Part shown: piece by piece, positions 35,460-51,931 of the stretch
How positions within the stretch are numbered: position 1 is the first letter of the stretch
Layout of the letters: each line of letters opens with the position of its first letter
Assembly (NCBI GenBank): GCA_009861545.1
Contig: VXME01000173.1
Coordinates: forward strand, 1 to 64,000
From: Acidobacteriota bacterium
GTDB taxonomy: Bacteria > Acidobacteriota > Vicinamibacteria > Vicinamibacterales > UBA8438
Length of the DNA: 64,000 nt
Reading direction: 5' to 3'
Notes under the pieces: generated by a model
Seen by the model: only the letters and a program-made list of their open reading frames with translations
What the model was told of the DNA's origin: nothing
Database searches by the model: none
Made by a program: the position numbers and the translations under genes

Positions 35460-35492
35460 GTCACGACCAGGCCGGGCGTGTTGAAGACCGAG
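35460..35492 (-). repeat. 33-bp scrap of the nucleotidyltransferase gene at 48 kb
   Basis: Positions 35460-35492 match 48350-48382 with about two differences (core CCAGGCCGGGCGTGTTGAAG). Short, but too close to be chance in non-related DNA; it marks another rearrangement breakpoint. Confidence 0.6.
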
Positions 35493-35619
35493 CTTCCTGT
35501 CCGTCGCCTGCCTGCTGCGCAGCTGCGCGGGGATCACGGTGCCATCGCCGAGGGATCTCGTTGGCCGAAACACCGCGCCGCCGGCGGCACGAAGCCGAAG
35601 CCGATGGTACGATCCGTGG

Positions 35620-37973: not shown

Positions 37974-38393
37974 GTGGGCCGCGGCTACCGGTTGTCCGCC
38001 GACCCGCTCGAGGGCGACCTGGTGGATCTGCTCAGCCCGACGCCGGGCCGCTACGGTCCCCGCGAGATGGTCGGGGTCAGCAACGCGAAGGACCCGGTCG
38101 GCGACGACCTGTTCCTGGTCAACTCGGGCCACGACTACGACCTGACCGATCCCCGGCAGCTCGAGGTCGGGCTGAAGGCGGACGTCGGCGGCCACACGGA
38201 GGTGACCGCCGCGGTGTTCGACATGGAGCGGGACGACGTGCTGGAGGCGTACGGGCCGGACAGCGTCTACACGATCGGCGGCATCCAGTCGCGGGGCGTG
38301 GAGCTGTCGATGGTGTCGCGGCCCAACGCCAACGCGTACTTCGGGGCCAGCGTCGCGTTCACGAACGCGGAGCTGGTGGCGGGGGTCTGGAAT
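37974..38393 (+). pseudogene. TonB-dependent receptor barrel fragment
   Basis: Reads GYRLSADPLEGDLVDLLSPT, LEVGLKADVGGHTEVTAAVF and GGIQSRGVELSMVSRPN: C-terminal barrel strands of a ferrisiderophore-type receptor. It ends exactly where hsdR (opposite strand) ends, at 38393, so the restriction locus truncates it. The N-terminal part is absent too. Confidence 0.85.
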
Positions 38394-41300
38394 CACTTCG
38401 ATGGGAATCGAGTGGCGACGTACTTCTTGGCATCCTCTTCACCGAGCCGCACCGAACCGGGCCCGGTTCGGACGTAGAGGTCGCCGCCGTCGGTTTTCTC
38501 CACGCCCTTCCAGCGCAGGTACACGGGATCCGGACTCCGCTGGCAGCTCACCAGGCAGACGGTCTTGCCCTCGACGATCTGCGTCTTCGGATCGATACAA
38601 GTGCCAGCGCGGTCGCCGAGACCGTTGCGCACGGCCTGGGCGAGGTGGCGCATGAACTTGTCGTCGTTGTCCAGGCGGTCGTGCTCGATGCCGAGCACCT
38701 TGCGGTCGTCGTCGACGCCGATCAGCAGGTCGCCGCCCTCGGTGTTGAGGAACGCGGCGATGGTCTTGAGCGCCGCGTGCGTCACGTGCTTGTCGTCCTT
38801 CCGGTCCTCCTGCAGGTTCCAGCGCAGGCTCGACTTGAACTCGAGCGTCTTCGACTCCTGGAGCTTCAGCAGCTCCTCGGCGCGCCGGTGCCGCCGCATG
38901 TAGTCGTCGAACAGGAGGTTCTTCAGCGCCCGGCCAAAGTCCGGGTCGTCGGTGATGCGCTTGTAGAGGTCGAAGTTGGTCTCGACGATCTCCTGGATCT
39001 TGTCCTCGACCTTGGGGTCGAAGGTCAGGCGCACGTTCTCGCGGGTGTTCACCTTGGCGCTGGCGTCGAGGCCGGCGTCCTTTTCGAGGGCCGCGCGGAT
39101 CTGCTCCAGCGTGACGCGGTGCTCGGGGCCCAGGTTCAGCCCGAAGCGCTCGTTCAGCGCCTCGATGATCCGTGAGAGCGCCTCCAGCTCCTCTGCGCCG
39201 CCGCCGGCGCGTGGCTTGCTCCCGGCAGGTTCGAGCGGCTCGCCGTGTCGTTCCAGCTTGATCCGGCCGCGGCTGGTCCGCTGGATGCGAAACGACTCCA
39301 TGTCGATGTTCTGCTGGACCTCTCGCGGCAGCTCGTCCTTGTCGGCCGGCAGCAGGCGCCGCAGGTGCCGGGCGAAGACGTAGAGCTTTTCCAGGTCGGG
39401 GTCGGCGAACGTCAGCACCTGGGAGAGGAACGAGTACAAGCGCACGTAGTCGGTGAGCTGGCCGCGAAAGTCGCCCGCCTCGTCGGGATCGAGGTCGACG
39501 AAGCGCTGGCGCGCCGGTTCCAGCGCCGCGTAGAGCCGATCCTGGTTCGCCCTGGGGTCGAAGTAGACGCGTGCGAACGATTCGACGTCGTCCGCCGTGA
39601 ACACGCCGAAGTCGAGCAGCCGGCCCTGGACCTCGTAGAGCAGGTTGGGGTCGGTCTCCTCCGAGAGCAGGGTGGTTTCGTAGTACGGCTCGAAGGCCTT
39701 CTTGATCTCGTCGGCCTCGTTGGCGAAGTCGAGCACCATCGTGCCCTGCTTGCCGGGGTGCGTACGGTTCAGGCGCGAGAGCGTCTGCACGGCGTTGACG
39801 CCGCCGAGCTTCTTGTCCACGTACATGGTGTGCAGCAGCGGCTGGTCGAAGCCGGTCTGGAACTTGCTGGCGACCACCAGGAAGCGGTACTCGGGTTTCT
39901 CGAACTCGGCTGCCGTCTGCCGGTCGCTGATGACGCGGTCCTGCCCGGCCGAGTTCATGCCCGACTCGGTATAGGACTCGCCGCCGTCCTTCACGGTGCC
40001 GGAGAAGGCGACGAGCGCCTTCCAGAAATGGCCCTTCTCGGCGAGGTAGCCGTCCAGGGCGATCTTGGTGCGGACGGCATGGAGGCGCGAGCGGGTGACG
40101 ATCATCGCCTTGGCCCGCCCGCCGATCCCGGTCGCGACCTGCGCGGCGAAGTGCTCCACGCAGACGGCGACCTTCTCGCCGATGGCGTGGGGGTGCAGCT
40201 CGACGAACGACTTCAGCAGGTGCTCGGCCTTGCGCTTGTCGTATCGAGGGTCGTCCTCGATCGTCTTCAGCAGGCGCCAGTACGCCTTGTAGGTGGCGTA
40301 GCTGGCGAGCACGTCGAGGATGAACCCTTCCTCGATCGCCTGGCGCATGGTGTAGCGGTGGAAGGGCTCGAACTTTCCGTCGGGCCGCTTGCTGCCGAAC
40401 AGCTCCAGGGTCTTGGGCTTCGGGGTGGCCGTGAAGGCGAACGTCGACAGGTTCGGCAGCCGCCCGCGGCTGCGGATCTCCTCCAGGACCCGCTCGTCGA
40501 TCTCCTCCTCCGGGGTCCGGGCGCCCGCTTCCTCCTGCGCGGCCTCCTCCAGGTTCCCCGCCGCGAGGACGGCCTTGAGGCTCTTCGTGCTCTCGCCGGA
40601 CTGCGACGAGTGCGCCTCGTCCACGATGACGGCGAAGCGCTTGCCGGGAAGCTCGCCGATCTGCTCGGCGATGACGGGGAACTTCTGCAGCGTGGTGACG
40701 ATGATGGTCCGGCCCGCCTCGAGCGCCTCGCGGAGTTGGCGCGAGGTGTGGTCGATGTTCTCGACCACGCCGAGGGTCTGCTCGAACTGGCGGATGGTGC
40801 GCTGGAGCTGACGGTCGAGCACGCGCCGGTCGGTCACCACGACCACCGAGTCGAAGACGCGCCGGTCGTCGGCATCGTGCAGCACCGAGAGCCGGTGGGC
40901 GAGCCAGGCGATGGTGAAGCTCTTGCCGCTGCCCGCGGAGTGCTGGATCAGGTAGCGCTGCCCCGTGCCGTGGTCGCGCGCGTGGCCGACGAGCCGGCGC
41001 ACGCAGTCGAGCTGCTGGTAGCGGGGGAAGATCAGGAAGCGCTTGCCGGTCTTGCGCCCGCGGTCGTCCTCGGCCTCGACCTCGTGGATGAACTGGCGGA
41101 CGAGGTCGAGCACGCTGTCGCGGGCCCAGATGCGTTCCCACAGGTAGTCGGTGGGGAAGCCCGTGCGGGTGGGCGGGACCGGCGGGTTCCCCGCGCCGCC
41201 GAAGCGCCCCTGGTTGAACGGCAGAAAGCGGGTCTTCGGCCCGGAGAGCGCCGTCGTCACGAACACCTGCTCCGGGTCCACGGCGAAGTGGGCGAGGCAA

Positions 41301-41929
41301 CGCCCGTAGCCGAAGAGCGGCTCGCGCGGGTCGCGGTCGTTCCGGTACTGCCGGATGGCATCCTGGACGTCCTGGCCGTTGAGCAGGTTCTTGAGCTCGG
41401 CCGTGAAGATGGGGATGCCGTTCAGGAACAGCGCGAGATCGAGGCTCTGGTCGGTCTTCTCGCTGAAGCGGAGCTGGCGTACCACGGCGAAGAGGTTGGC
41501 CGCGTGCAGGCGCTGCAACTCCTCGTTCAGTCCGCTGGCCGGCCGGAAGTACGCCAGCCGGAACTTGCAGCCCGAATCCTTGACGCCGTTGCGCAGCACG
41601 TCGAGCGCGCCCCGCCGGGCGATTTCGCGCGAGAGGTAGCCAAGAAAGCGCGGCTTGATGTCGGCGCCGTGGTGTTGCTTGAGCTTCTCCCATTCCTTCG
41701 GTTGGGTGGCCAGCAGGAAGTCGACGACGTCGGCCGGAAGTAGGCAGAGCGCGCGGTCGTAGTCCTCCGGCCGGCGTTTGCGGTAGCCGCCGGGCAACGG
41801 GTCGTCGCCGTATGACGGTGGCGACTCCCGTACCGACTTCGCGCCGCCGCGAAAGGCGTCGGGGCCGTGGCGGAGCAGCGCGGCTTCGATCGCGTCCTCG
41901 AAGGCCCGCTCTGAGACCTCGGGAGTCAT
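38393..41929 (-). CDS. hsdR: Type I restriction endonuclease subunit R with C-terminal AlbA_2-like domain
   Basis: 1178 aa from ATG 41929 (GGAGAG upstream). N-terminal nuclease PD-(D/E)xK region: GIPIFTAELKNLLNGQ. Helicase: Walker A HSAGSGKSFT, DEAH in IVDEAHSSQSG, FAFTATPKPKTLELFG, and VASKFQTGFDQPLLHTMYVD plus SRLNRTHPGKQG for motifs V-VI. After the helical region, residues about 1024-1178 (ESKTLEFKSSLRWNL..., TEGGDLLIGVDDDRKVLGIE) form an AlbA_2/Schlafen-like domain. It acts with HsdM and HsdS to translocate and cut unmodified DNA. Last gene of the operon. Confidence 0.93.
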   Translation of the reverse strand: MTPEVSERAFEDAIEAALLRHGPDAFRGGAKSVRESPPSYGDDPLPGGYRKRRPEDYDRALCLLPADVVDFLLATQPKEWEKLKQHHGADIKPRFLGYLSREIARRGALDVLRNGVKDSGCKFRLAYFRPASGLNEELQRLHAANLFAVVRQLRFSEKTDQSLDLALFLNGIPIFTAELKNLLNGQDVQDAIRQYRNDRDPREPLFGYGRCLAHFAVDPEQVFVTTALSGPKTRFLPFNQGRFGGAGNPPVPPTRTGFPTDYLWERIWARDSVLDLVRQFIHEVEAEDDRGRKTGKRFLIFPRYQQLDCVRRLVGHARDHGTGQRYLIQHSAGSGKSFTIAWLAHRLSVLHDADDRRVFDSVVVVTDRRVLDRQLQRTIRQFEQTLGVVENIDHTSRQLREALEAGRTIIVTTLQKFPVIAEQIGELPGKRFAVIVDEAHSSQSGESTKSLKAVLAAGNLEEAAQEEAGARTPEEEIDERVLEEIRSRGRLPNLSTFAFTATPKPKTLELFGSKRPDGKFEPFHRYTMRQAIEEGFILDVLASYATYKAYWRLLKTIEDDPRYDKRKAEHLLKSFVELHPHAIGEKVAVCVEHFAAQVATGIGGRAKAMIVTRSRLHAVRTKIALDGYLAEKGHFWKALVAFSGTVKDGGESYTESGMNSAGQDRVISDRQTAAEFEKPEYRFLVVASKFQTGFDQPLLHTMYVDKKLGGVNAVQTLSRLNRTHPGKQGTMVLDFANEADEIKKAFEPYYETTLLSEETDPNLLYEVQGRLLDFGVFTADDVESFARVYFDPRANQDRLYAALEPARQRFVDLDPDEAGDFRGQLTDYVRLYSFLSQVLTFADPDLEKLYVFARHLRRLLPADKDELPREVQQNIDMESFRIQRTSRGRIKLERHGEPLEPAGSKPRAGGGAEELEALSRIIEALNERFGLNLGPEHRVTLEQIRAALEKDAGLDASAKVNTRENVRLTFDPKVEDKIQEIVETNFDLYKRITDDPDFGRALKNLLFDDYMRRHRRAEELLKLQESKTLEFKSSLRWNLQEDRKDDKHVTHAALKTIAAFLNTEGGDLLIGVDDDRKVLGIEHDRLDNDDKFMRHLAQAVRNGLGDRAGTCIDPKTQIVEGKTVCLVSCQRSPDPVYLRWKGVEKTDGGDLYVRTGPGSVRLGEEDAKKYVATRFPSK

Positions 41930-42089
41930 GCCGGTCTCTCCGCGTCCAGAAGGCGCCTGGGCTGGGGTGTCATAGCCCGATGCCACAGCGTGTCACAGTT
42001 CGTTGTCAGGGTGTCACAGCTCCGTTGCCTCGGAATCCACGTGAGATCGGCCGTCATCGCGTGCGTGACCGTGAAGCCCGGCTCGACGC

Positions 42090-43448
42090 TCAATGAGGCA
42101 CCCCCTCGCACACGTCGATCTTGCCGGTGACCGCAGCGGAAATGAGGCCGGTGCGGAACTCTTTGAGGAGCCGGATTCCTCTGAGCGTTGCTTCGCACAA
42201 GCGATCGAGCTGAGCTACATGTTCATCCAGGTAGGTCGCGACTATCTTCTGCTCTTGCAAAGGGACCAGTGGCAATGGAACTCGCCTGAAGTTCGCGAAG
42301 CGCAGGGCCTGTCCGTCCCGTACCAGGTCGGAAGTGCTCTGAAGGGCTTGAACGTATGTCGCCGACTTGAGTACATAAGAGAAATAGCCGCTATCGACTC
42401 GGTCAGATGGGCGCACTATTACGTAGGCGGAACTTATGCAACCTCGGTAATTCGAGTACTCAAGGCCGCCTTGGAAACTGCGCATGCTTATTACGAAGTC
42501 GTTCGGTTCAACGTGTTTGAGTATATCGGTTCCGGTAACAACCTGTACCACGCTTCGCCCTTCAAGTTCCACAAACTTGCGTTGCGGAATCACCCCGTGC
42601 TGCTGGGAAGCGGTCAGTTGCTGGTCATCGGCTAGTGCGCTTTCTTTCCGATGCGTGAACAACATATTGCTTCCAACAACATCCCAATGCGCCGGGATCT
42701 CGCCCAGCCACTCGATGCCGGAGTCCTTCATAGGGACGTTCGCGTCGAGGCCTCCGGTGGCGGCGCGGGTAATGAGGGCAGTGCGCTTTTCCTGAAGCAG
42801 CTCGATCAGCCGCTCCTTCGTCACCACGAGCGCATCGATCTTCGCCGTCTCGCGGTCGAGGAAGGCAACGATGGCGCGTTGTTCGGGGAGACCGGGCACA
42901 GGATGACAGAAATCGCGAATGAAGTCGTCTGAGATGCGCCTCTGGCCGCCTGCCCCGTACATCGAAGCGGTACCGATGCTGCGGAAATGGTCGCTGAAAG
43001 TCAGGTAGAGGAGGAAGCGAGGATCTACAAGGAATGAGGCTCGAAGGACGTGTAGCTCAGTCGTTCCGAAGCCGACACCGTTGCACAGGCCGGTCGCCAG
43101 GGCGCCCTTACCGTTCTCGAAACACGGGGTGATCTTGGCGACAATGACATCCCCGTTGCGGAAATACGTATAACCATCGACAACGGCCGAGAGTGGCTTC
43201 GTCGAAACGAGATCGATGCCACCGTATTCGCGGACAGCTTCCATTGGTACGAACGAAACCTCGGTCTCGGGATCGAGATCGGTTACCTCGCTCTTGGTGA
43301 TGGTCGTTCCGACGACAAAGCGAAGTCGTTTCGCCTCCCAATGCGCCGGGATTTTGCCCAGCCACTCGTCGCCAGACTCCTTGTACTCGGGGTAACCCCG
43401 AAGACGCCAGCGCCGCACCCCTTCGCCCCTGTCGGTCAACTCACTCAC
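42090..43448 (-). CDS. hsdS: Type I specificity subunit S
   Basis: 452 aa, GTG start at 43448 overlapping the AbiEii-type gene by 8 nt. Two target recognition domains separated by conserved helices: TRD1 after YPEYKESGDEWLGKIPAHWE, central repeat EQRAIVAFLDRETAKIDALV, TRD2 after DSGIEWLGEIPAHWDVV, second helix EQKIVATYLDEHVAQLD. It sets the DNA sequence recognised by the complex. The second half (about 42180-42640) is visibly lower in GC, a sign of TRD exchange. Confidence 0.93.
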   Translation of the reverse strand: MSELTDRGEGVRRWRLRGYPEYKESGDEWLGKIPAHWEAKRLRFVVGTTITKSEVTDLDPETEVSFVPMEAVREYGGIDLVSTKPLSAVVDGYTYFRNGDVIVAKITPCFENGKGALATGLCNGVGFGTTELHVLRASFLVDPRFLLYLTFSDHFRSIGTASMYGAGGQRRISDDFIRDFCHPVPGLPEQRAIVAFLDRETAKIDALVVTKERLIELLQEKRTALITRAATGGLDANVPMKDSGIEWLGEIPAHWDVVGSNMLFTHRKESALADDQQLTASQQHGVIPQRKFVELEGRSVVQVVTGTDILKHVEPNDFVISMRSFQGGLEYSNYRGCISSAYVIVRPSDRVDSGYFSYVLKSATYVQALQSTSDLVRDGQALRFANFRRVPLPLVPLQEQKIVATYLDEHVAQLDRLCEATLRGIRLLKEFRTGLISAAVTGKIDVCEGVPH

Positions 43449-44412
43449 CGCCGTGGTCTTGGGTCCGAGCCTGAACCCCTGGCCGCCACAGCCCCCCGGG
43501 CGGCCAAGTCTGCGCGAAAGGACGCTCTTCGATCAGACTGTCGCAGATCGGCCCCAGGAACCGGCGCAGTTCCTCGCCTGCATCCTCCAGACGATCCGGC
43601 CCGTCGATGCCGCTCGCGATCTGCCGTCGCAGCTCGCGCCAGCGTTGCCCGCGCGCGGGGGACTCGTGTTCGTCGTAGTAGCCGGCGCGTAGCGCGGTCG
43701 GCCGCCCGCCCGCGAGCGACGTCCCGCGGTGGCGGAATGCCTCGGCGATGGCGGTGCGCAGGGCGTCGCCGTCGAACGCGAAGCGGCGCGCGAGACAGGC
43801 GACGTCCCAGAGGTCCTTCACGCGCGAGTTCGCATCGCCCAGACTGGCCATCGCGTGAAACTTCTCGGCGACCATCGTGTCGCGCGGGTACGTCCAGAGG
43901 CGGGGGGCGGGCAGGTCGAGGAGCGTAGGATAGTCCTCCTGCCTGCGCCCGAGCGTGAGGACGTCGCCGAAGCCGATGTCGATCGGAACCGCGAGCCGGA
44001 CCCGGCCGAGGCCGCCCCGGATACGGACCCGGAAGCCGCCGTTCGGCTGATCGATGCGGATGCTCGTGATCGCGATCGTCGCGGGGTCGAAGACGACGCC
44101 GTCCTCTTGACAGGGAACGCCGCAGACGTCCCGCAGGGCGGTGCGAATGGCGGCCTCGTCGCGGGCGCCGCGGGCCAGGAAGTCGATATCCCGGGTGGGC
44201 CGCAGCTCCTGCCCGGCCCACACGCGGAGGAGAGCCGCGCCCTTCAGGGTGAATCGGTCCGCCTCGTCCGATGCGGAGAGGCGATAGAGGAAACGCTCGA
44301 CCGCGTAGCGCTGGAGGACGCCCTCGAAGCGAAGTCGCTGCTCGCGGGCGAGGTTCAGCAGGCGCTGGCGGACGGACGCGGGTACGTCCCGGATGGCCTG
44401 TCGGGGAGTCAT
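43441..44412 (-). CDS. AbiEii/AbiGii-type nucleotidyltransferase toxin
   Basis: 323 aa, ATG overlapping the AbiEi-type stop (ATGA, 4 nt). Nucleotidyltransferase core: FTLKGAALLRVWAG, RPTRDIDFLA (D-x-D pair), then TIAITSIRID, YPRDTMVAEKFHAM and DANSRVKDLWDVACL. AbiEii-type toxins transfer nucleotides to targets such as tRNA ends and cause growth arrest. Placed between hsdM and hsdS in one operon. Confidence 0.9.
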   Translation of the reverse strand: MTPRQAIRDVPASVRQRLLNLAREQRLRFEGVLQRYAVERFLYRLSASDEADRFTLKGAALLRVWAGQELRPTRDIDFLARGARDEAAIRTALRDVCGVPCQEDGVVFDPATIAITSIRIDQPNGGFRVRIRGGLGRVRLAVPIDIGFGDVLTLGRRQEDYPTLLDLPAPRLWTYPRDTMVAEKFHAMASLGDANSRVKDLWDVACLARRFAFDGDALRTAIAEAFRHRGTSLAGGRPTALRAGYYDEHESPARGQRWRELRRQIASGIDGPDRLEDAGEELRRFLGPICDSLIEERPFAQTWPPGGLWRPGVQARTQDHGGE

Positions 44413-44987
44413 GCCGTCAGCGCTTCGAGCACCGGGCCGACGAGTGACTTCGCGCGGCACACTTCGGCAGCCCGCCAGATCTGGTCGACGCTCGCCTTGC
44501 GGTCGTCCAGGGCGTCGCGCAGCGCCTCGATCGCGACGTCCTTGCCGACCAGCCGCCGGAAGCGGAAACAGTCGACGACGGTGCGGGCCGGGCTCGTGAT
44601 GCGGACGGGCACTCCTTCGAAGGTCGTGTTCACGACGCCGTAGCGAAGCGCGGCGCCGGAGAAGCGCACCACCCGGATCGGCAGCCCGGACACGCGGGGC
44701 GTGCGGGCCTTGTGCGGAATGGCGATCCACTCCTGCCACGGAAGTTGTGTGGTGAGTTCGTGGACGCTCAGAGCGGAAAGCAGACAGACAATGGCGCCCG
44801 GAACGCGGGCGCAGACGGCGGCCAGGGTGTAGTGCTCGGTCGGTTCGGCTTCCGCGACGCGATAGAGACCGCGCGCCACACGCTCGACGGATCCGTCGTC
44901 GACCAGGCGCCGAAGCGTACGGGAGTCGACGCCCATCGCGGCGGCTTCGCGCGGGCGGAAGAAGGTCTTCGTGCCGAGGCTACGCAT
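44409..44987 (-). CDS. AbiEi-type antitoxin
   Basis: 192 aa from ATG 44987 (an upstream ATG at 45131 lies inside the promoter and is less likely). N-terminal winged-helix: FFRPREAAAMGVDSRTLRRL, VERVARGLYRVAEAEP. Middle and C-terminal parts (TLAAVCARVPGAIVCLLSALS, PARTVVDCFRFR, EALRDALDDRKAS) match AbiEi families. It would bind the promoter at 45021-45132 and neutralise the nucleotidyltransferase. Confidence 0.88.
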   Translation of the reverse strand: MRSLGTKTFFRPREAAAMGVDSRTLRRLVDDGSVERVARGLYRVAEAEPTEHYTLAAVCARVPGAIVCLLSALSVHELTTQLPWQEWIAIPHKARTPRVSGLPIRVVRFSGAALRYGVVNTTFEGVPVRITSPARTVVDCFRFRRLVGKDVAIEALRDALDDRKASVDQIWRAAEVCRAKSLVGPVLEALTA

Positions 44988-45020
44988 GGCGAAGGTGCTC
45001 GACCGGGGCTGATATCCGAA

Positions 45021-45132
45021 AATGTCGGCAGATACAGGCGGTTGTCGATCTTTCGGGGCGGACACGCCCCGAGCATAGCCCGGTGCGCTGGAGGAATCAA
45101 ATTGACGGCACGTACTCTTAACTGCCGACATT
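45021..45132 (-). promoter_or_regulatory. abiE promoter with flanking inverted repeat
   Basis: An 11-bp inverted repeat, AATGTCGGCAG (45021-45031) and CTGCCGACATT (45122-45132), brackets a promoter on the minus strand: TTGATT (complement of 45095-45100), 17 nt, TATGCT (complement of 45072-45077). This layout suits AbiEi autorepression. The right arm and the promoter are preserved in the relic at 29600-29668. Confidence 0.6.
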
Positions 45133-45140
45133 AAGGGACG

Positions 45141-47252
45141 TCACTCCGTCATCTCCCGTAGCATGGCCACGATCTCCTTCTCCACCTGCTGGATGTCGGC
45201 TTCGATCTCCTCCAGCGGGCGAGGCGGGCGGTACTCGTAGAAGTAGCGGTTGAAGTTGATCTCGTAGCCGACGAGCCCGACCTCGCCGTCCTGCGGATCC
45301 CGGCGCGTCGTGTCGATCCAGGCGTCGGGAACGTGCGGCTTCACCTCGCGCGCGAAAAACGCCTCTACGGACTCTCGTAGAGGCACGTTCTCCCTGTCGC
45401 GCCGCTCCGGATCCGGCTCGGGGCGACCCTCCCGGTCCCGGCAGATCTCCGCCTCGTCATTGCGCTGGGACAGGGCCGAGAGGATGGCTTTCTTGATGGG
45501 CGCGGCGAGCTTGAGCTCCGCCGCTCCGGCCGCCTGAGAGAGTGCCGCCTCGAAATCCGCCCGGTCCAGAAACAGCTTATCCGGAAGCCGCGCAACCAGG
45601 GCTCGGATGGCGTCCTGCTGCTCCCGGCCCGCCGCCTCGTCCCGGACCCTGGCCTCGCCCCGCTTGCGCGACACGGCGAGGTTGACGAAGGCACGCTCAT
45701 CGTCGAGCCGCGCGATCCGTTCGGGACTGGCCTGGAAGTCGAGCCGGAGCGGCCGTTCGACGGTGATCTTGCGGAAGCCGAAGTGCGTGGTGGGGTAGAC
45801 GCGGCTGACGATGGTCTCGCGCTCCTCGCCGTCCCGCTCGACCTTGCGGGTGGCGCCGTCCTGGAAGTCGGCCAGCAGCCGCAGGACGTCCTGCTTCCGC
45901 TCGAACGGCACCTCGCGGCGCTTGGCGCCGAGGCTCTTGCGCAGCAGGACCCAGAACGAGGTGGCGTTGACGAGTTGGACCATGCCGCGCCGCTCCGCCC
46001 GCTTGCGGTTCGTCAGCACCCAGACGTAGGTGGCGATGCCCGTGTTGTAGAAGAGCTGCTCGGGCAGGGCGATCAGCGCTTCGAGCAGGTCGTTCTCGAG
46101 GATCCAGCGGCGTATCTCGCTTTCGCCGCTGCCGGCGTCGCCGGTAAACAGCGGCGAGCCGTTCATGATGATCGCCACCCGCGAGCCGCCCCGGCCCGAG
46201 TCCTTGACGTGGGCCAGCATGTGCTGCAGGAACAGGAGCTGGCCGTCGCTGATCCGCGGCAGCCCCGGACCGAAGCGCCCCGCCGCGCCCCGGTCGTGCT
46301 CGGCGCGCACCGCGTCCTGGTCGCGCTTCCAGTCCTTGCCGTAGGGCGGATTGGCGATCAGGTAGTCGAAGCCGGTCCCGCCGTGCCGGTCGTTCGACAG
46401 CGTGCTCCCGAACAGGACGTTCTCGGCGTCGCGGCCGTCCGCCGACTTCATGAAGAGGTCGGACTTGCAGATGGCGAAGGTCTCCGGGTTGACCTCCTGG
46501 CCGAAGAGGTGGATGTCGGCGTCGGGGTTCATTGCCTCGCCGCGGCGCTCGCCGTCGCGCGTCTCGCCGGCGGTGAGGTGCTCCTTGGCGATGGTGAGCA
46601 TGCCGCCCGAGCCGCAGCACGGGTCGTAGACGCTGAGCACGACCCCCCTGGTGCGCAGCCGTTCCTCGTCGCCGGCCAGCAGCAGGTCGACCATCAGGTG
46701 GACGACGTCACGGGGCGTGAAGTGCTCGCCGGGGTTTTCGTTGAGCGCCTCGTTGAACTTGCGGATGAGCTCCTCGAAGATCGTGCCCATCGCGGCGTTG
46801 TCGACCGCGTCGGGGTGGAGGTTCACCTGCGGGTCGCCGAACCGTTGCACGACCTGGAACAGGAGCCCCGACTCGTCGAGCTTGGAGATGGTGTTGTCGA
46901 AGTCGAACTTCTCGAGCACCTCGCGCATGTTGGGGCTGAACCCGGCGATGTAGTTGCGCAGGTTCTGGGCGATGTGGGGGGCATCAGCCAGCAGCTTCTC
47001 GAAGTCGTAGCGTGACGTGTTGTAGAACGCGAAGCCGGAGGCGCGCCGGAGCTGCGGGTCGAGATTGTCGATCTTGCCCGCGTACTTGGCCTGGACCTCC
47101 AGTACGCTTCGCTTGGTTGGGGCCAGCACGCAGTCGAGCCGCCGCAGCACGGTGAGCGGCAGGATGACGTCCTGGTACTTGCCCCGCTTGAAGGTGTCGC
47201 GGATCAAGTCCGCCACGCCCCAGATGAAGCTGACGATCTGGCTGTGGTTCAT
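45141..47252 (-). CDS. hsdM: Type I DNA methyltransferase subunit M
   Basis: 703 aa. N-terminal HsdM domain (FIWGVADLIRDTFKRGKYQD, FAFYNTSRYDFEKLL); SAM motif I VYDPCCGSGGMLTIAKEHL; catalytic NPPY in LIANPPYGKDW (N6-adenine type). ATG at 47252 with a weak ribosome site. About 110 C-terminal residues include EINFNRYFYEYRPPRPLEEI. First gene of the operon hsdM-abiEi-abiEii-hsdS-hsdR. Longer than many HsdM because of the C-terminal extension. Confidence 0.93.
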   Translation of the reverse strand: MNHSQIVSFIWGVADLIRDTFKRGKYQDVILPLTVLRRLDCVLAPTKRSVLEVQAKYAGKIDNLDPQLRRASGFAFYNTSRYDFEKLLADAPHIAQNLRNYIAGFSPNMREVLEKFDFDNTISKLDESGLLFQVVQRFGDPQVNLHPDAVDNAAMGTIFEELIRKFNEALNENPGEHFTPRDVVHLMVDLLLAGDEERLRTRGVVLSVYDPCCGSGGMLTIAKEHLTAGETRDGERRGEAMNPDADIHLFGQEVNPETFAICKSDLFMKSADGRDAENVLFGSTLSNDRHGGTGFDYLIANPPYGKDWKRDQDAVRAEHDRGAAGRFGPGLPRISDGQLLFLQHMLAHVKDSGRGGSRVAIIMNGSPLFTGDAGSGESEIRRWILENDLLEALIALPEQLFYNTGIATYVWVLTNRKRAERRGMVQLVNATSFWVLLRKSLGAKRREVPFERKQDVLRLLADFQDGATRKVERDGEERETIVSRVYPTTHFGFRKITVERPLRLDFQASPERIARLDDERAFVNLAVSRKRGEARVRDEAAGREQQDAIRALVARLPDKLFLDRADFEAALSQAAGAAELKLAAPIKKAILSALSQRNDEAEICRDREGRPEPDPERRDRENVPLRESVEAFFAREVKPHVPDAWIDTTRRDPQDGEVGLVGYEINFNRYFYEYRPPRPLEEIEADIQQVEKEIVAMLREMTE

Positions 47253-47693: not shown

Positions 47694-48018
47694 GGGGTTT
47701 CCTTCCTATTCAGGGAAGCACGTTCTACGGAGCCGTCGACGCCGTGCAGTCAATCTGCCCGCCTTCAATGCCGTGCGCGGAGCAACTTGGGAGCGTCGGA
47801 GACGTTCGGAGAGGATCCTAACGGACGTGCCGGGCGGCGGTCCGTGCCGTGGTCAAGGACTTCGTTCCCGGTACTCCCGCTCCGGGCGTCGACGCGTCAG
47901 CAGTTCCAGGAAACTTGGCTGATCGGGCCGCCCGTACCGAAGCCGTTCGTCTCGGTCCAGGATCGCCAGGCACCTCGTTCGGGTCCAGCAGCCCCGCTCG
48001 GCCGCCTCGACCTGGAAG

Positions 48019-48067
48019 GCTGGAGCCGGCGAGCGGACTCGAACCGCTGACCTGCTGATTGCGAATC
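48019..48067 (-). repeat. attachment-like copy of the tRNA-Thr 3' half
   Basis: Identical to 51738-51786 for 42 nt, then one mismatch and six more matches. It contains the tRNA 3' end, T-arm and anticodon-arm part, in the same orientation. This geometry is that of an att site left by site-specific integration at a tRNA gene. Confidence 0.85.
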
Positions 48068-48133
48068 CTGATGTAGCCTGTCCAACCACGTCCGGAGGTC
48101 AGCGTACGCGACTTCGGCGGGCGATTCGCTCAT
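48068..48133 (-). pseudogene. Gene start truncated at the att-like repeat
   Basis: ATG 48133 overlaps the stop of the nucleotidyltransferase gene (ATGA) and reads SESPAEVAYADLRTWLDRLH, then runs into the tRNA repeat. The third gene of a small operon was cut at the island end. I do not recognise the family. Confidence 0.55.
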
Positions 48134-48672
48134 CGCCGGTTCCTCACCCTCTCGTCGACGATCTTCGACACGAGTTCCCGTCGCCGCGCGTCGACGGTGG
48201 CCGTGTGCGGCAGCACCGTCCGGTACATTTCCAATGCCTGATCGGCGCTCGTGATCTCCAGTTGGTCGATCAAGACGCCGATGTCGTCCTCGTCGCTATT
48301 CCGGGCGGCGTCGATCTTCATCGCCAGCATGTGCTCCGCCGATGCGCCAGTCACGGCCAGGCCGGGCGTGTTGAAGACCGTGCGCGCCCGATCGTCCTTG
48401 GCCGGCGGCATGAACAGTCTGGCGTTCTCGTTGAGCCAGTTCGGGTCCAGATTCTCCTCTTCCGCTATCTCTTCGGCTGCGGCCAGCACCGCGTCCTTCG
48501 CGTACTCGATCCGAGCGTCGACGTCACGGGTTGTCCGCTCCCGACCGTAGCCGACGATCATCGCGCTGCCGCCGACGATGTAGAGCTGGCCCCGAATTCC
48601 GCGTGCGGCCAGCCTCGCCGAGAGCGTCTCGAACAGCTTCATGATGCGGTTGCGATCCAGGGACCCACTCAT
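48130..48672 (-). CDS. Nucleotidyltransferase-fold protein (DUF6036-like)
   Basis: 180 aa from ATG 48672 (ATG 48693 is possible). Nucleotidyltransferase core LYIVGGSAMIVGYGRERTTRDVDARI with the D-x-D pair, then GASAEHMLAMKIDAARNSDEDDI. It resembles DUF6036-type proteins found in toxin-antitoxin-like pairs. Downstream of the gene at 48.5-49.1 kb on the same strand. Located inside the tRNA-Thr island. Confidence 0.75.
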   Translation of the reverse strand: MSGSLDRNRIMKLFETLSARLAARGIRGQLYIVGGSAMIVGYGRERTTRDVDARIEYAKDAVLAAAEEIAEEENLDPNWLNENARLFMPPAKDDRARTVFNTPGLAVTGASAEHMLAMKIDAARNSDEDDIGVLIDQLEITSADQALEMYRTVLPHTATVDARRRELVSKIVDERVRNRR

Positions 48673-49090
48673 GTCGCTCACCCCCCCGGGCATCGAGGCA
48701 TCTCGGATCCGGCACCGCGCCGTGACGGATGAACGCTGCGGGCGCGAACGCGATCGCCTCCTTCACCATGGTCGGCGTCGTGGGCAGGATCCAGGTGATC
48801 TCCAGGAACCGCTCGGCTTCCTCCAGCCACGCTGGCGGCTGTTGCTGGTGGAGTTCGCACAGGTGCTCTACGGTCGCGGCCAGGAGCGCATCCCATCGGG
48901 TATCCGTAGTCGGGGGCCTCTGGTTCAGCACTTTCTGCTGTTTTTCTCGCCCGAGCGACCGGAAGTTCCGGGGCAGGTCGTGCAGGATCGCCCGGGTGAG
49001 GTCTGCGTCGGTCCACCCGGCGCGTATCGCGTCGGTGTAGTCGCTGAGTGCGACCCGGGCGGGCTCGCGCGGGTGTCGTGCCGCGTCCAT
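48524..49090 (-). CDS. Hypothetical protein next to the nucleotidyltransferase
   Basis: From ATG 49090 (or ATG 49132). Real-looking part: DYTDAIRAGWTDADLTRAIL, PAWLEEAERFLEITWILPTT, IRHGAVPDPRCLDARGGE. From about 48690 on, the frame overlaps the downstream gene and becomes Arg-rich, so the true end or a frameshift probably lies near 48690. Together with the next gene it may form a toxin-antitoxin-like pair (inference). Family not recognised. Confidence 0.5.
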   Translation of the reverse strand: MDAARHPREPARVALSDYTDAIRAGWTDADLTRAILHDLPRNFRSLGREKQQKVLNQRPPTTDTRWDALLAATVEHLCELHQQQPPAWLEEAERFLEITWILPTTPTMVKEAIAFAPAAFIRHGAVPDPRCLDARGGERHEWVPGSQPHHEAVRDALGEAGRTRNSGPALHRRRQRDDRRLRSGADNP

Positions 49091-49132
49091 CGTGGTCTGG
49101 TCCGCTCTCAACGTTTCCAGCCTACGGCTCAA

Positions 49133-49689
49133 CTTCGCCGCCGGTCAATGTGCGGCGAGCGTGCTCCAAGACACCGTGTCCGGGGTTGCGTTCGAGAACG
49201 CAAGCCCAACCGGCGAGCCAGGGCTGAGCGGCGACTAGGCATGGAAACGCGGCACGACCATGTCGCGGCCCACAGCAGCCGGTCCGACGTGGTGCTCGAC
49301 GCAAGAAGCGGGCATCCCCGGCATGCGGCACCTCGCGTTCAAGCGTAGCGACATCGCCCACGGCCGGGCCGGTCCGCGGGAAAGCCGCTCGCTCGGATCT
49401 GTGGGGGCGAAAGCCGAATGGCTGAGCTTACCCGACCATCCCCCGCGAGCGAGGCGGGCCGGTACCAGATCACGCACGTACCGGCGCCCGTGCGTTCTCG
49501 AGACCGTCGCATGGGACTTCGCGAGCCGGTGCTGCCGCGCTACGAGCGGATCTGTAGCCCATGATAGACTATGCCAAAGTGCAAGAGCTCGGGAATGCAA
49601 GGAATCGGATGACACCATCATCAGGATTTCAGGCCTACGCCTGTCAAATTGTCCAAGGGTGTTCTAAACCGAGATAGAGGAGCTACGCA
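49133..49689. other. Gap without a gene; start of AT-rich DNA
   Basis: About 550 nt with shadow frames only. The base composition shifts from GC-rich to AT-richer near 49555. The right end carries GAGGAG, the ribosome site for the next gene. Confidence 0.5.
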
Positions 49690-51090
49690 ATGGACGGGGA
49701 CACCTCGGTTGGTTCGGATGAAGAATCTACTGGGTCCACGCCTGTGTCCAGCAGCGACACTGTATCCAAGAACCGGGAGGCGGCTAGTCGCCTGATCGAA
49801 AAGGAGATTGACGGCCTAGTTGGACATCTTGATAGTCTCGGAGGGACCCTCCCATTCCTAATGGCGGCATTGGACGCTATAAGGGCGGGCGAGCGGGAGA
49901 AGCGGGATAAGTACGAAACAGACAACGCAATGGCCGTAGAGGAAACGGAAACCAAACGAACAGTTACGTTAACTGTAGAAGCTTTTGCGCCGTACAAGCG
50001 GTTGATAAAGCATCTCCAAACCGCTAGTCGCGCGACTGTCTTGCTTCCGGAGATCTTTGTTGTCGCGCTAGTCAGTCAGTACGACGCTTTCTTGGGCGGA
50101 CTCGTGCGTGCGTTGATGAAGGGTAGGCCGGAGATCGTTAATGCAAGCGGCCGTAAGATGCCGTTTTCGCAACTTGTTGGCTTTGAATCCATAGAAGCTG
50201 CGCGCGACGCAATAATATATGAGGAAGTGGAGGCGCTGCTGAGGAAGAGTCACGACGAGCAGTTTTCCTGGCTTGAGTCGACGTTCAAATTGAAGCTTAG
50301 GGAGGGGCTCCAGCAATGGCCCGATTTTGTTGAGCTAACAGAACGTCGAAACTTGTTTGTTCACGCGAGGGGTATTGTGTCTCGTCAGTATCTTGACGTG
50401 TGCCGTCGGCACAGGGTGCGCGTGGGCGAGGAAATGAAGCTCGGAAAGAAACTTCATGTTACGCCGGAGTACTTTGCTAATGCGCACGGCTGCGTGCTTG
50501 AGATCGGTGTGATGCTCGGCCAAGTTCTTTGGAGGAAGATGCTTCCGGACTCCTTGCTTGATGCGGATAAGCACCTGAATCGTGTTTGTTATGAGCTCTT
50601 GGAAGAACGTCGTTACGATTTGGCGGCGACTCTCCTGGACTTTGCTGCCTGCACTTTCAAAAAAAAGTTCGGGTCTGAAGAGTACCGACGCATGATGGTT
50701 GTCAATCGGGCGCAGGCATACAAATGGCTCAAGCAGGGTGGCAAGTGCGAGAAAATTATGCAATCAGAGGACTGGAGTGCATCGCAGGACTCGTTTAGGC
50801 TGGCCGACGCGGTCCTGAAAGACGACATCGAGGCCACAACGCAGATGATGAGACGTATCGGAGCGACAGATGAAGTTGTCACAAAGGAGTCGTATCGCGA
50901 CTGGCCGCTGTTTCGCGAGGTCCGTAAGCAAGAGGAATTTCGGAAAGCGTATCGAGAAATATTTGGCGAACCACTCGAGAGAGTCGAAGTGAAGGCTGGG
51001 GGCGACGGAGACGAAGACTGGCAGAACGGAACGCTGGCCGAGGAGGATGCGCCCGACAACGGGAAAGCGTCGCAGGGTCCGATTCACTGA
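49690..51090 (+). CDS. HEPN-like protein on a tRNA island, AT-rich
   Basis: 466 aa, ATG 49690 with GAGGAG 7 nt upstream. Not exported. An acidic Ser-rich start (1-25) is followed by helices (40-110), LLPEIFVVALVSQYDAFLGG (119-138) and WPDFVELTERRNLFVHARG. R220-x4-H225 fits the HEPN RNase motif R-x4-6-H, and the flanking helices fit a RiboL-PSP-HEPN-like fold. The C-terminal half is helical and TPR-like (LLEERRYDLAATLLDFAACT). Roughly 50% GC versus about 68% around it, so recently acquired. It may be a stand-alone anti-phage or abortive-infection RNase (inference). Confidence 0.7.
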   Translation: MDGDTSVGSDEESTGSTPVSSSDTVSKNREAASRLIEKEIDGLVGHLDSLGGTLPFLMAALDAIRAGEREKRDKYETDNAMAVEETETKRTVTLTVEAFAPYKRLIKHLQTASRATVLLPEIFVVALVSQYDAFLGGLVRALMKGRPEIVNASGRKMPFSQLVGFESIEAARDAIIYEEVEALLRKSHDEQFSWLESTFKLKLREGLQQWPDFVELTERRNLFVHARGIVSRQYLDVCRRHRVRVGEEMKLGKKLHVTPEYFANAHGCVLEIGVMLGQVLWRKMLPDSLLDADKHLNRVCYELLEERRYDLAATLLDFAACTFKKKFGSEEYRRMMVVNRAQAYKWLKQGGKCEKIMQSEDWSASQDSFRLADAVLKDDIEATTQMMRRIGATDEVVTKESYRDWPLFREVRKQEEFRKAYREIFGEPLERVEVKAGGDGDEDWQNGTLAEEDAPDNGKASQGPIH

Positions 51091-51737
51091 CGGTGGGCAT
51101 CGCAGTTGCCAACGGTGCAACGCATCGAAGCCGGAATCATCCAGGATTCGGTTCAGCCCGGTCGAAAGCAAAAAAGCGCCCGTGGCTCGTTGGCGGTTCC
51201 GCCGTGTCCACCGACACCGATCCGCGACTTTCGCCACAGCGTTCAGCCTGCGGTTGGAGACACGAACGCCGAGATCGCGCCGGTGGTGCCGACTCGGTCG
51301 TGGGGTGCGATCCGAGCGCCACCATGACCTTCCGGACGCCGGTGGCCCGGGTTCAGGTTCGACGAGGCACGCGCCCATCTGCGCCGCCCGGTACAGGTGC
51401 CGCCGGCTGGGTGGCTTTCGGGTCGTCGGCGGGGCCGAGGCGGTCGGCACCATGCGCAACGGGCACCTGAACCCATGCCAGCACGAGCTCGAGGGACTTC
51501 GGAGTCGACGGGTTCGAGCCGTCGACTGTCGTTCGGGCTCGAGCCGCCTCTCGTCGCCGGCCTCCACCTGATGATCGGTCGGGGGATGTCGTCGTCAGTG
51601 AGCCCTGGATGCCAGAAGGCGACTGTGCCGCGCCGCCACAGGATCGGGATCTGCACCCTATGTGCACCCTACGCGAGCAGGGGCCGCGACCGTAGCGTTC
51701 GGCGCGCGCCCGCAAATAACTGAAAAAAAGGAGAAAA
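51091..51737. other. Island tail with no convincing gene
   Basis: About 640 nt between the HEPN-like gene and the tRNA. Overlapping frames on both strands look like shadows. No integrase is seen. Confidence 0.5.
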
Positions 51738-51739
51738 GC

Positions 51740-51815
51740 TGGAGCCGGCGAGCGGACTCGAACCGCTGACCTGCTGATTACGAATCAGCTGCTCTACCAA
51801 CTGAGCTACGCCGGC
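51740..51815 (-). tRNA. tRNA-Thr (anticodon CGT)
   Basis: Reverse strand gives a full cloverleaf: acceptor GCCGGCG/CGCCGGC, D-loop AGCTCAGTTGGTAGAGC, anticodon stem CTGATTCGTAATCAG with CGT (reads ACG), T-arm GGTTCGAGTCC, and encoded CCA. The 3' side is followed by an island and a second partial copy at 48019. Confidence 0.95.
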
Positions 51816-51931
51816 TTCTCCTGCGCGAGGAGGAGGGTCGGAGCGCCGCTCGCTGCTGCGCGCCAACCGAAAATGTTAGCACAAGGCCAGGCCGCGCCGG
51901 CCGCCGAGCGCGGCTCGAAGCCGGCGCCGGC

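Follow-up and report, generated by a model that had tools for sequence, protein, structure and literature searches.

An Acidobacteriota tRNA-island gene for a candidate self-contained HEPN RNase with a TPR-like half, from an unnamed and mobile protein family

A tRNA island of an Acidobacteriota bacterium (contig VXME01000173.1) carries a gene for a predicted HEPN-TPR protein, which we read, with a probability of about two in three, as an abortive-infection HEPN RNase that is self-contained, has a TPR-like sensor and would stay latent until phage infection. Directly supported are the gene, its family, the conservation of its motif, its predicted fold, its mobility, the absence of a conserved partner and the repeated siting of homologs in defence hotspots. 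By its predicted activity, this widespread, unnamed family would join the HEPN immune RNases. It would be a small case with neither ATPase nor partner, so that sensing and killing would need to be coupled inside one chain, and as P4 satellites of E. coli carry a homolog, the prediction is open to direct test in a common laboratory strain. In the following, the window is the whole stretch of DNA that was analysed, the first 64,000 nucleotides of the contig.

The gene lies at 49690-51090 on the forward strand and is an intact ORF of 466 aa with an ATG start. Its leader (49671-49689, forward strand) holds a good ribosome site, AGAGGAG, some 7 nt upstream of the start codon, as had been noted in a preliminary description of this DNA. 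The same description had put the GC content at about 50%; low GC relative to the surroundings (65-72%) was found, while the figure itself was slightly low, the ORF having 53.7%. GC3 was 0.61, compared with 0.93-0.94 for hsdM, hsdR and uvrA. In the AlphaFold2 model of the protein (pLDDT 89.5, pTM 0.85) a long N-terminal helical hairpin was followed by the predicted HEPN domain and by a C-terminal TPR-like array. The N-terminal half was all-helical, with R220 and H225 at the end of one helix.

Sequence and model together make it likely that the domain around R220 and H225 is a HEPN domain. HEPN domains have been defined (PMC3710099) by an Rx4-6H motif that closes helix 3 and whose arginine is followed by a polar residue (N, D or H), by an acidic residue of helix 2 that usually belongs to Ex3[K/R], and by an insert separating helices 2 and 3. 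The predicted core (residues 96-284, 49975-50541, forward strand) was delimited by AlphaFold2 secondary structure, by comparison with Anantharaman 2013 and by hhalign alignment to RiboL-PSP HEPN. Its helices comprised residues 96-145, 168-184, 210-225 and 259-284, with an insert helix at 188-199. Helix 210-225 ended at H225 of the motif R220-N-L-F-V-H225 (50347-50364, forward strand), the next major helix being 259-284, and N221 provided the polar residue after the arginine. E181-x3-R185 (50230-50244, forward strand), located in or at the end of helix 168-184, provided the acidic residue of helix 2. The preliminary description had pointed to R220-x4-H225 as a HEPN RNase pattern with helical flanks, and had counted the lack of a HEPN bundle, or of conservation of R and H in homologs, against itself. 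The motif was found at these positions, the model had the expected HEPN helices with the motif ending the third, and R, N and H were kept in every homolog covering the site. E or D occupied position 181 in 72 of 74 homologs and R185 was present in 70 of 74, the Rx4H segment being the most conserved part of the protein in the homolog alignment. The homolog set is biased, most members having been collected with the peptide ERRNLFVH, and motif identity among most homologs is therefore partly circular. Members reached otherwise carried ERRNLLVH, ERRNLFTH, IRNLLVH or LRNIIVH, in which R, N and H were constant and other letters varied. Judged by these alignments, R220-x4-H225 is not a chance match.

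Alignment with hhalign to RiboL-PSP HEPN was co-linear and in register at Rx4H. With seven template sequences the score was 34.0, compared with at most 22.9 for 60 block-shuffled controls and at most 19.8 for 14 decoy families; with 12 template sequences it was 28.5 and 100 shuffles reached up to 27.4, a margin near the best shuffles. HEPN matches in Pfam were few and weak among 58 members (best RiboL-PSP, 2.2e-4, and Cthe_2314, 6.7e-3), and the PADLOC model RTasHEPN gave weak matches in 21 of the 58. The window protein alone showed only weak matches to Pfam, NCBIfam and PADLOC, the best being RTasHEPN (E 0.0044), and no match in a sequence search of solved structures. Fold searches (Foldseek/VIA) with the whole model and with the excised core had no solved HEPN domain among the matches listed. 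TPR proteins dominated the matches of the whole model, and in the viral structure set the excised core matched an uncharacterised siphophage protein (TM 0.67). The absence of a HEPN chain from the listed matches would fit a helical domain that is not HEPN and an Rx4H match that is coincidental, an explanation made very unlikely by the placement of the helices, the second motif, the insert and the hhalign alignment in register at Rx4H.

The best profile similarity found was to RiboL-PSP-HEPN (PF18735) and related HEPN domains of the AbiD/AbiF type, with co-linear helices and Rx4H in register. Known RiboL-PSP-HEPN members, however, are solo or fused to endoRNase L-PSP, whereas the HEPN-TPR family adds the long N-terminal hairpin and the TPR-like half, and the window protein had no PF18735 match. 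With RTasHEPN of PADLOC the family shares the weak profile match around Rx4H, but the HEPN-TPR protein is about three times the length of that model, and a conserved reverse transcriptase was not observed among the neighbouring genes. The genome of the window also encodes a second, separate RiboL-PSP-type HEPN protein (L090, G000:C42:88215-88661).

The C-terminal half (residues 286-425, 50545-50964, forward strand) was predicted to form a solenoid of helical hairpins with TPR geometry, and many TPR proteins were among its structure matches. It matched the TPR chaperone YscY (DALI-scale Z 10.8, rmsd 2.1, 89 residues) and FAN1 (Z 10.2, rmsd 2.0, 81 residues), values below the Z of 13 under which matches between helical repeats can reflect a common arrangement. 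The predicted structure is in this respect consistent with the preliminary description, which had called this half TPR-like. N339 and P406 were invariant and W405, F408, R412 and F417 near-invariant in this half, which suggests a specific surface, and a role of the TPR-like half in sensing may be proposed. HEPN and TPR are also joined in one protein in LA2681 HEPN (PF18733); in the members fetched, however, the HEPN domain is C-terminal and follows the repeats, whereas it precedes the TPR-like half in the window family. No similarity to LA2681 was detected with hhalign, the LA2681 profile being built from very few sequences; PF18733 had no match over its cut-off in the window protein and was absent among the families listed for the 58 members.

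More than 80 homologs were found in total. A single-sequence search returned close relatives only on cyanobacterial plasmids, together with a short HEPN-only relative from Parageobacillus, and neither the first scan of genome contigs with the single protein nor the first viral scan gave a match. A four-row alignment used as query yielded 72 loci in representative genomes, and further members were found on ten viral contigs and in five E. coli genomes. Most members had about 410-540 aa and shared the full length, while several copies were broken. Prevalence was low and patchy (2 of 193 genomes of the class, 2 of 396 in a sample of the phylum and 3 of 349 in a sample of one Bacteroidota order). 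A tree of 68 sequences showed 16 phyla intermixed, with 23 label changes where the minimum is 15. Transfer across phyla is the simplest reading of this tree, and paralogy or mis-binned contigs might possibly have contributed to the intermixing. No family for the HEPN-TPR protein was found over the cut-off in Pfam (2025), NCBIfam or PHROGs, PADLOC 2.0 gave weak HEPN matches only, and a literature search with accession numbers found no paper. The family is thus unnamed in Pfam, NCBIfam and PHROGs, while HEPN defence RNases and HEPN-TPR fusions are already known kinds of protein. Two prophage homologs (L131, 7791-9058, and L132, 4663-5930) were split at the same place into two ORFs with a 4-bp overlap, which is either a two-subunit form that arose naturally or a frameshift common to both. 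One member (L048) had an extra C-terminal stretch (residues 413-493) matching the PADLOC candidate PDC-S34 (E 1.6e-14), hinting at a module in common. PDC-S34 was rejected as a label for the family, the match being confined to this stretch of a single member.

Across about 16 bacterial phyla, homologs were carried by phages, phage satellites, plasmids and tRNA islands. The E. coli homolog (WP_126316185.1) was the sole gene between the integrase and psu of a P4 satellite. It overlapped the end of the integrase gene by 4 bp, and the adjoining psu-delta-sid was 98.8% identical to P4. The int-psu interval of P4 is a reservoir of antiviral systems, including uncharacterised HEPN-domain systems (Rousset et al. 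2022, PMC9122126), and we did not find the HEPN-TPR family among those that the main text of that paper describes. The E. coli homolog resembles this cargo in occupying the same slot as a single gene, but the family was carried by only 5 of 5,426 complete E. coli genomes; the window gene for its part lies in a tRNA island rather than in a P4 element. Homologs in Erwinia and on an IMG/VR viral contig (L129) occupied the same slot of P4-like elements. Over its final 47 bp, the Erwinia gene (L063) was about 91% identical to DNA that carries no annotation and occurs in dozens of E. coli genomes. Another homolog (L130) was located near an integrase, and a further one (L128) near both a GmrSD-type gene and an integrase.

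In prophages (L125/L126 and L131/L132) the homolog stood beside phage repressors. This placement would also suit a protein that has the HEPN fold without RNase activity and serves phages and satellites as an RNA- or protein-binding regulator or as a decoy, and some HEPN families are indeed non-catalytic (PMC3710099). As the catalytic set of R, N and H together with Ex3R falls within the most conserved part of the protein, we regard such a role as unlikely.

Many chromosomal homologs were found among ordinary metabolic genes, and N6-methylase genes occurred within 10 kb of the homolog in 2 of 21 genomes by hand count, a weak enrichment. Because of this, the case for a defence function is built on the association with phages, satellites and restriction genes. 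The preliminary description had proposed a stand-alone defence effector and had suggested counting how often homologs sit in defence islands. It was context that favoured defence (the int-psu slot of P4, immunity regions of prophages, restriction operons and the tRNA hotspot), rather than a general enrichment. The stand-alone character was supported, as clustering of neighbours in about 70 loci revealed no conserved partner; only the helicase of the Nostoc-type loci recurred, in four related loci.

Since no conserved partner was found, latency must have its source in the protein or in some factor of the host, and an autoinhibited HEPN RNase released via its TPR-like half is the most economical model. 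The HEPN domain would act as a metal-independent RNase through R220, N221 and H225, aided by E181 and R185, and would be kept latent by the rest of the polypeptide. Either a product of the phage or a change brought about by infection would act on the TPR-like part, whereupon HEPN domains would become active by pairing, a dimer being the usual form of HEPN RNases. RNA of the host or of the phage would then be cut, translation would stop and the phage would not be propagated. In this scheme we infer the RNase activity, the dimer, the autoinhibition, the trigger, the target RNA and the protection. A more far-reaching version is put forward tentatively, with odds somewhat against it: the protein might be a complete innate immune receptor in one chain, whose TPR-like array binds a conserved phage component directly and thereby frees the HEPN RNase, and the unit might be exchanged in about 16 phyla between phages, P4-like satellites, plasmids and tRNA islands, as a weapon that mobile elements use against one another.

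A silencer could also be supplied by an associated restriction system, from which a phage anti-restriction protein would release the HEPN protein, as in a PrrC-like guard; an arrangement of this kind has been proposed for HEPN proteins linked to restriction-modification (RM) by Anantharaman 2013 (PMC3710099). In the window, a type I RM operon on the reverse strand (38393-47252) lies 2.4 kb from the HEPN-TPR gene, and the preliminary description had rightly placed the gene close to an RM/AbiE operon. Its hsdM (45141-47252), AbiEi (44409-45131) and AbiEii (within 43441-44739) were identified by Pfam and PADLOC, and hsdS (42090-43448) and hsdR (38393-41986) from sequence. HsdR adjoined, or was two genes away from, the homologs of Crinalium and Aquisalimonas, and in Synechococcus HsdM was two genes away. 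In Nostoc relatives the homolog was located in a tight operon, with 2-bp gaps or overlaps, between an Eco57I/TaqI-type methyltransferase followed by a small gene and a PLD-SNF2 helicase. Yet the RM partners differ in kind, the RM operon of the window is outside the 3.6-kb insert that contains the HEPN-TPR gene, and P4 satellites, prophages and most chromosomal loci have no RM beside the gene, so that a guard of this type appears rather improbable. The PrrC and RloC anticodon nucleases likewise join a HEPN RNase to a sensing part, and PrrC accompanies type I RM, but both sense via an ABC ATPase, whereas the HEPN-TPR protein has no ATPase domain. The compact cyanobacterial operon (L003, 2482-10912; L004, 7163-14547), composed of the Eco57I/TaqI-type methyltransferase, a 184-aa protein, HEPN-TPR and the PLD-SNF2 helicase, has the look of a separate, restriction-like system. 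In the window, the AbiEi and AbiEii genes were embedded between hsdM and hsdS, and the hsdR product seemed, when read by eye, to have a C-terminal Schlafen/AlbA-like stretch.

The mobility of the HEPN-TPR gene is also evident in the window. A tRNA-Thr (CGT; 51740-51815, reverse strand, ARAGORN) forms the island insertion site, and its 3' end is directly repeated, exactly over 25 bp and at 96% over 52 bp, with a tRNA-proximal copy (51735-51786) and a distal copy (48016-48067) that marks an att-like island boundary. In the sister genome G183, the flanks matching 47912-47991 and 51598-51888 of the window (blastn) are only 5 bp apart, and the 3.6 kb at 47992-51597, which G183 lacks, is therefore an insert. 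The tRNA island of the preliminary description was thus recovered together with an empty site. In another sister genome (G185) the same place was taken by about 12.4 kb of other DNA, in which transposases and a gene for GmrSD restriction (PF03235, PF07510) were found. No integrase was seen in the 3.6-kb insert. Besides the HEPN-TPR gene it contains a DUF6036 (AbiEii-like) nucleotidyltransferase gene (48130-48693, reverse strand, Pfam E 1.6e-7), which accounts for the toxin-like neighbours noted earlier. Both genes being within the insert, this nucleotidyltransferase might modify and silence the HEPN protein, as in a HEPN-MNT toxin-antitoxin pair. The two genes are, however, divergent and 1 kb apart, and among the neighbours of homologs, where no partner was conserved, neither the nucleotidyltransferase nor the ORF preceding it had a relative. 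Silencing by this enzyme is hardly credible, and the pairing was rejected for want of a conserved adjacent gene for an MNT-type antitoxin.

The DUF6036 gene is preceded by an overlapping ORF of 202 aa that belongs to no family (48130-49132 for both, reverse strand), and the two are a possible toxin-antitoxin pair within the insert. The window also contains a 34-bp direct repeat (94%) at 35460-35493 and 48350-48383. The tRNA-Thr end with up to 200 bp of adjoining sequence (51529-51787) recurred at sites lacking an intact tRNA, both elsewhere in this genome and in the sister genome G185 (L112, L113, L114, L118), suggesting a family of elements with a common end.
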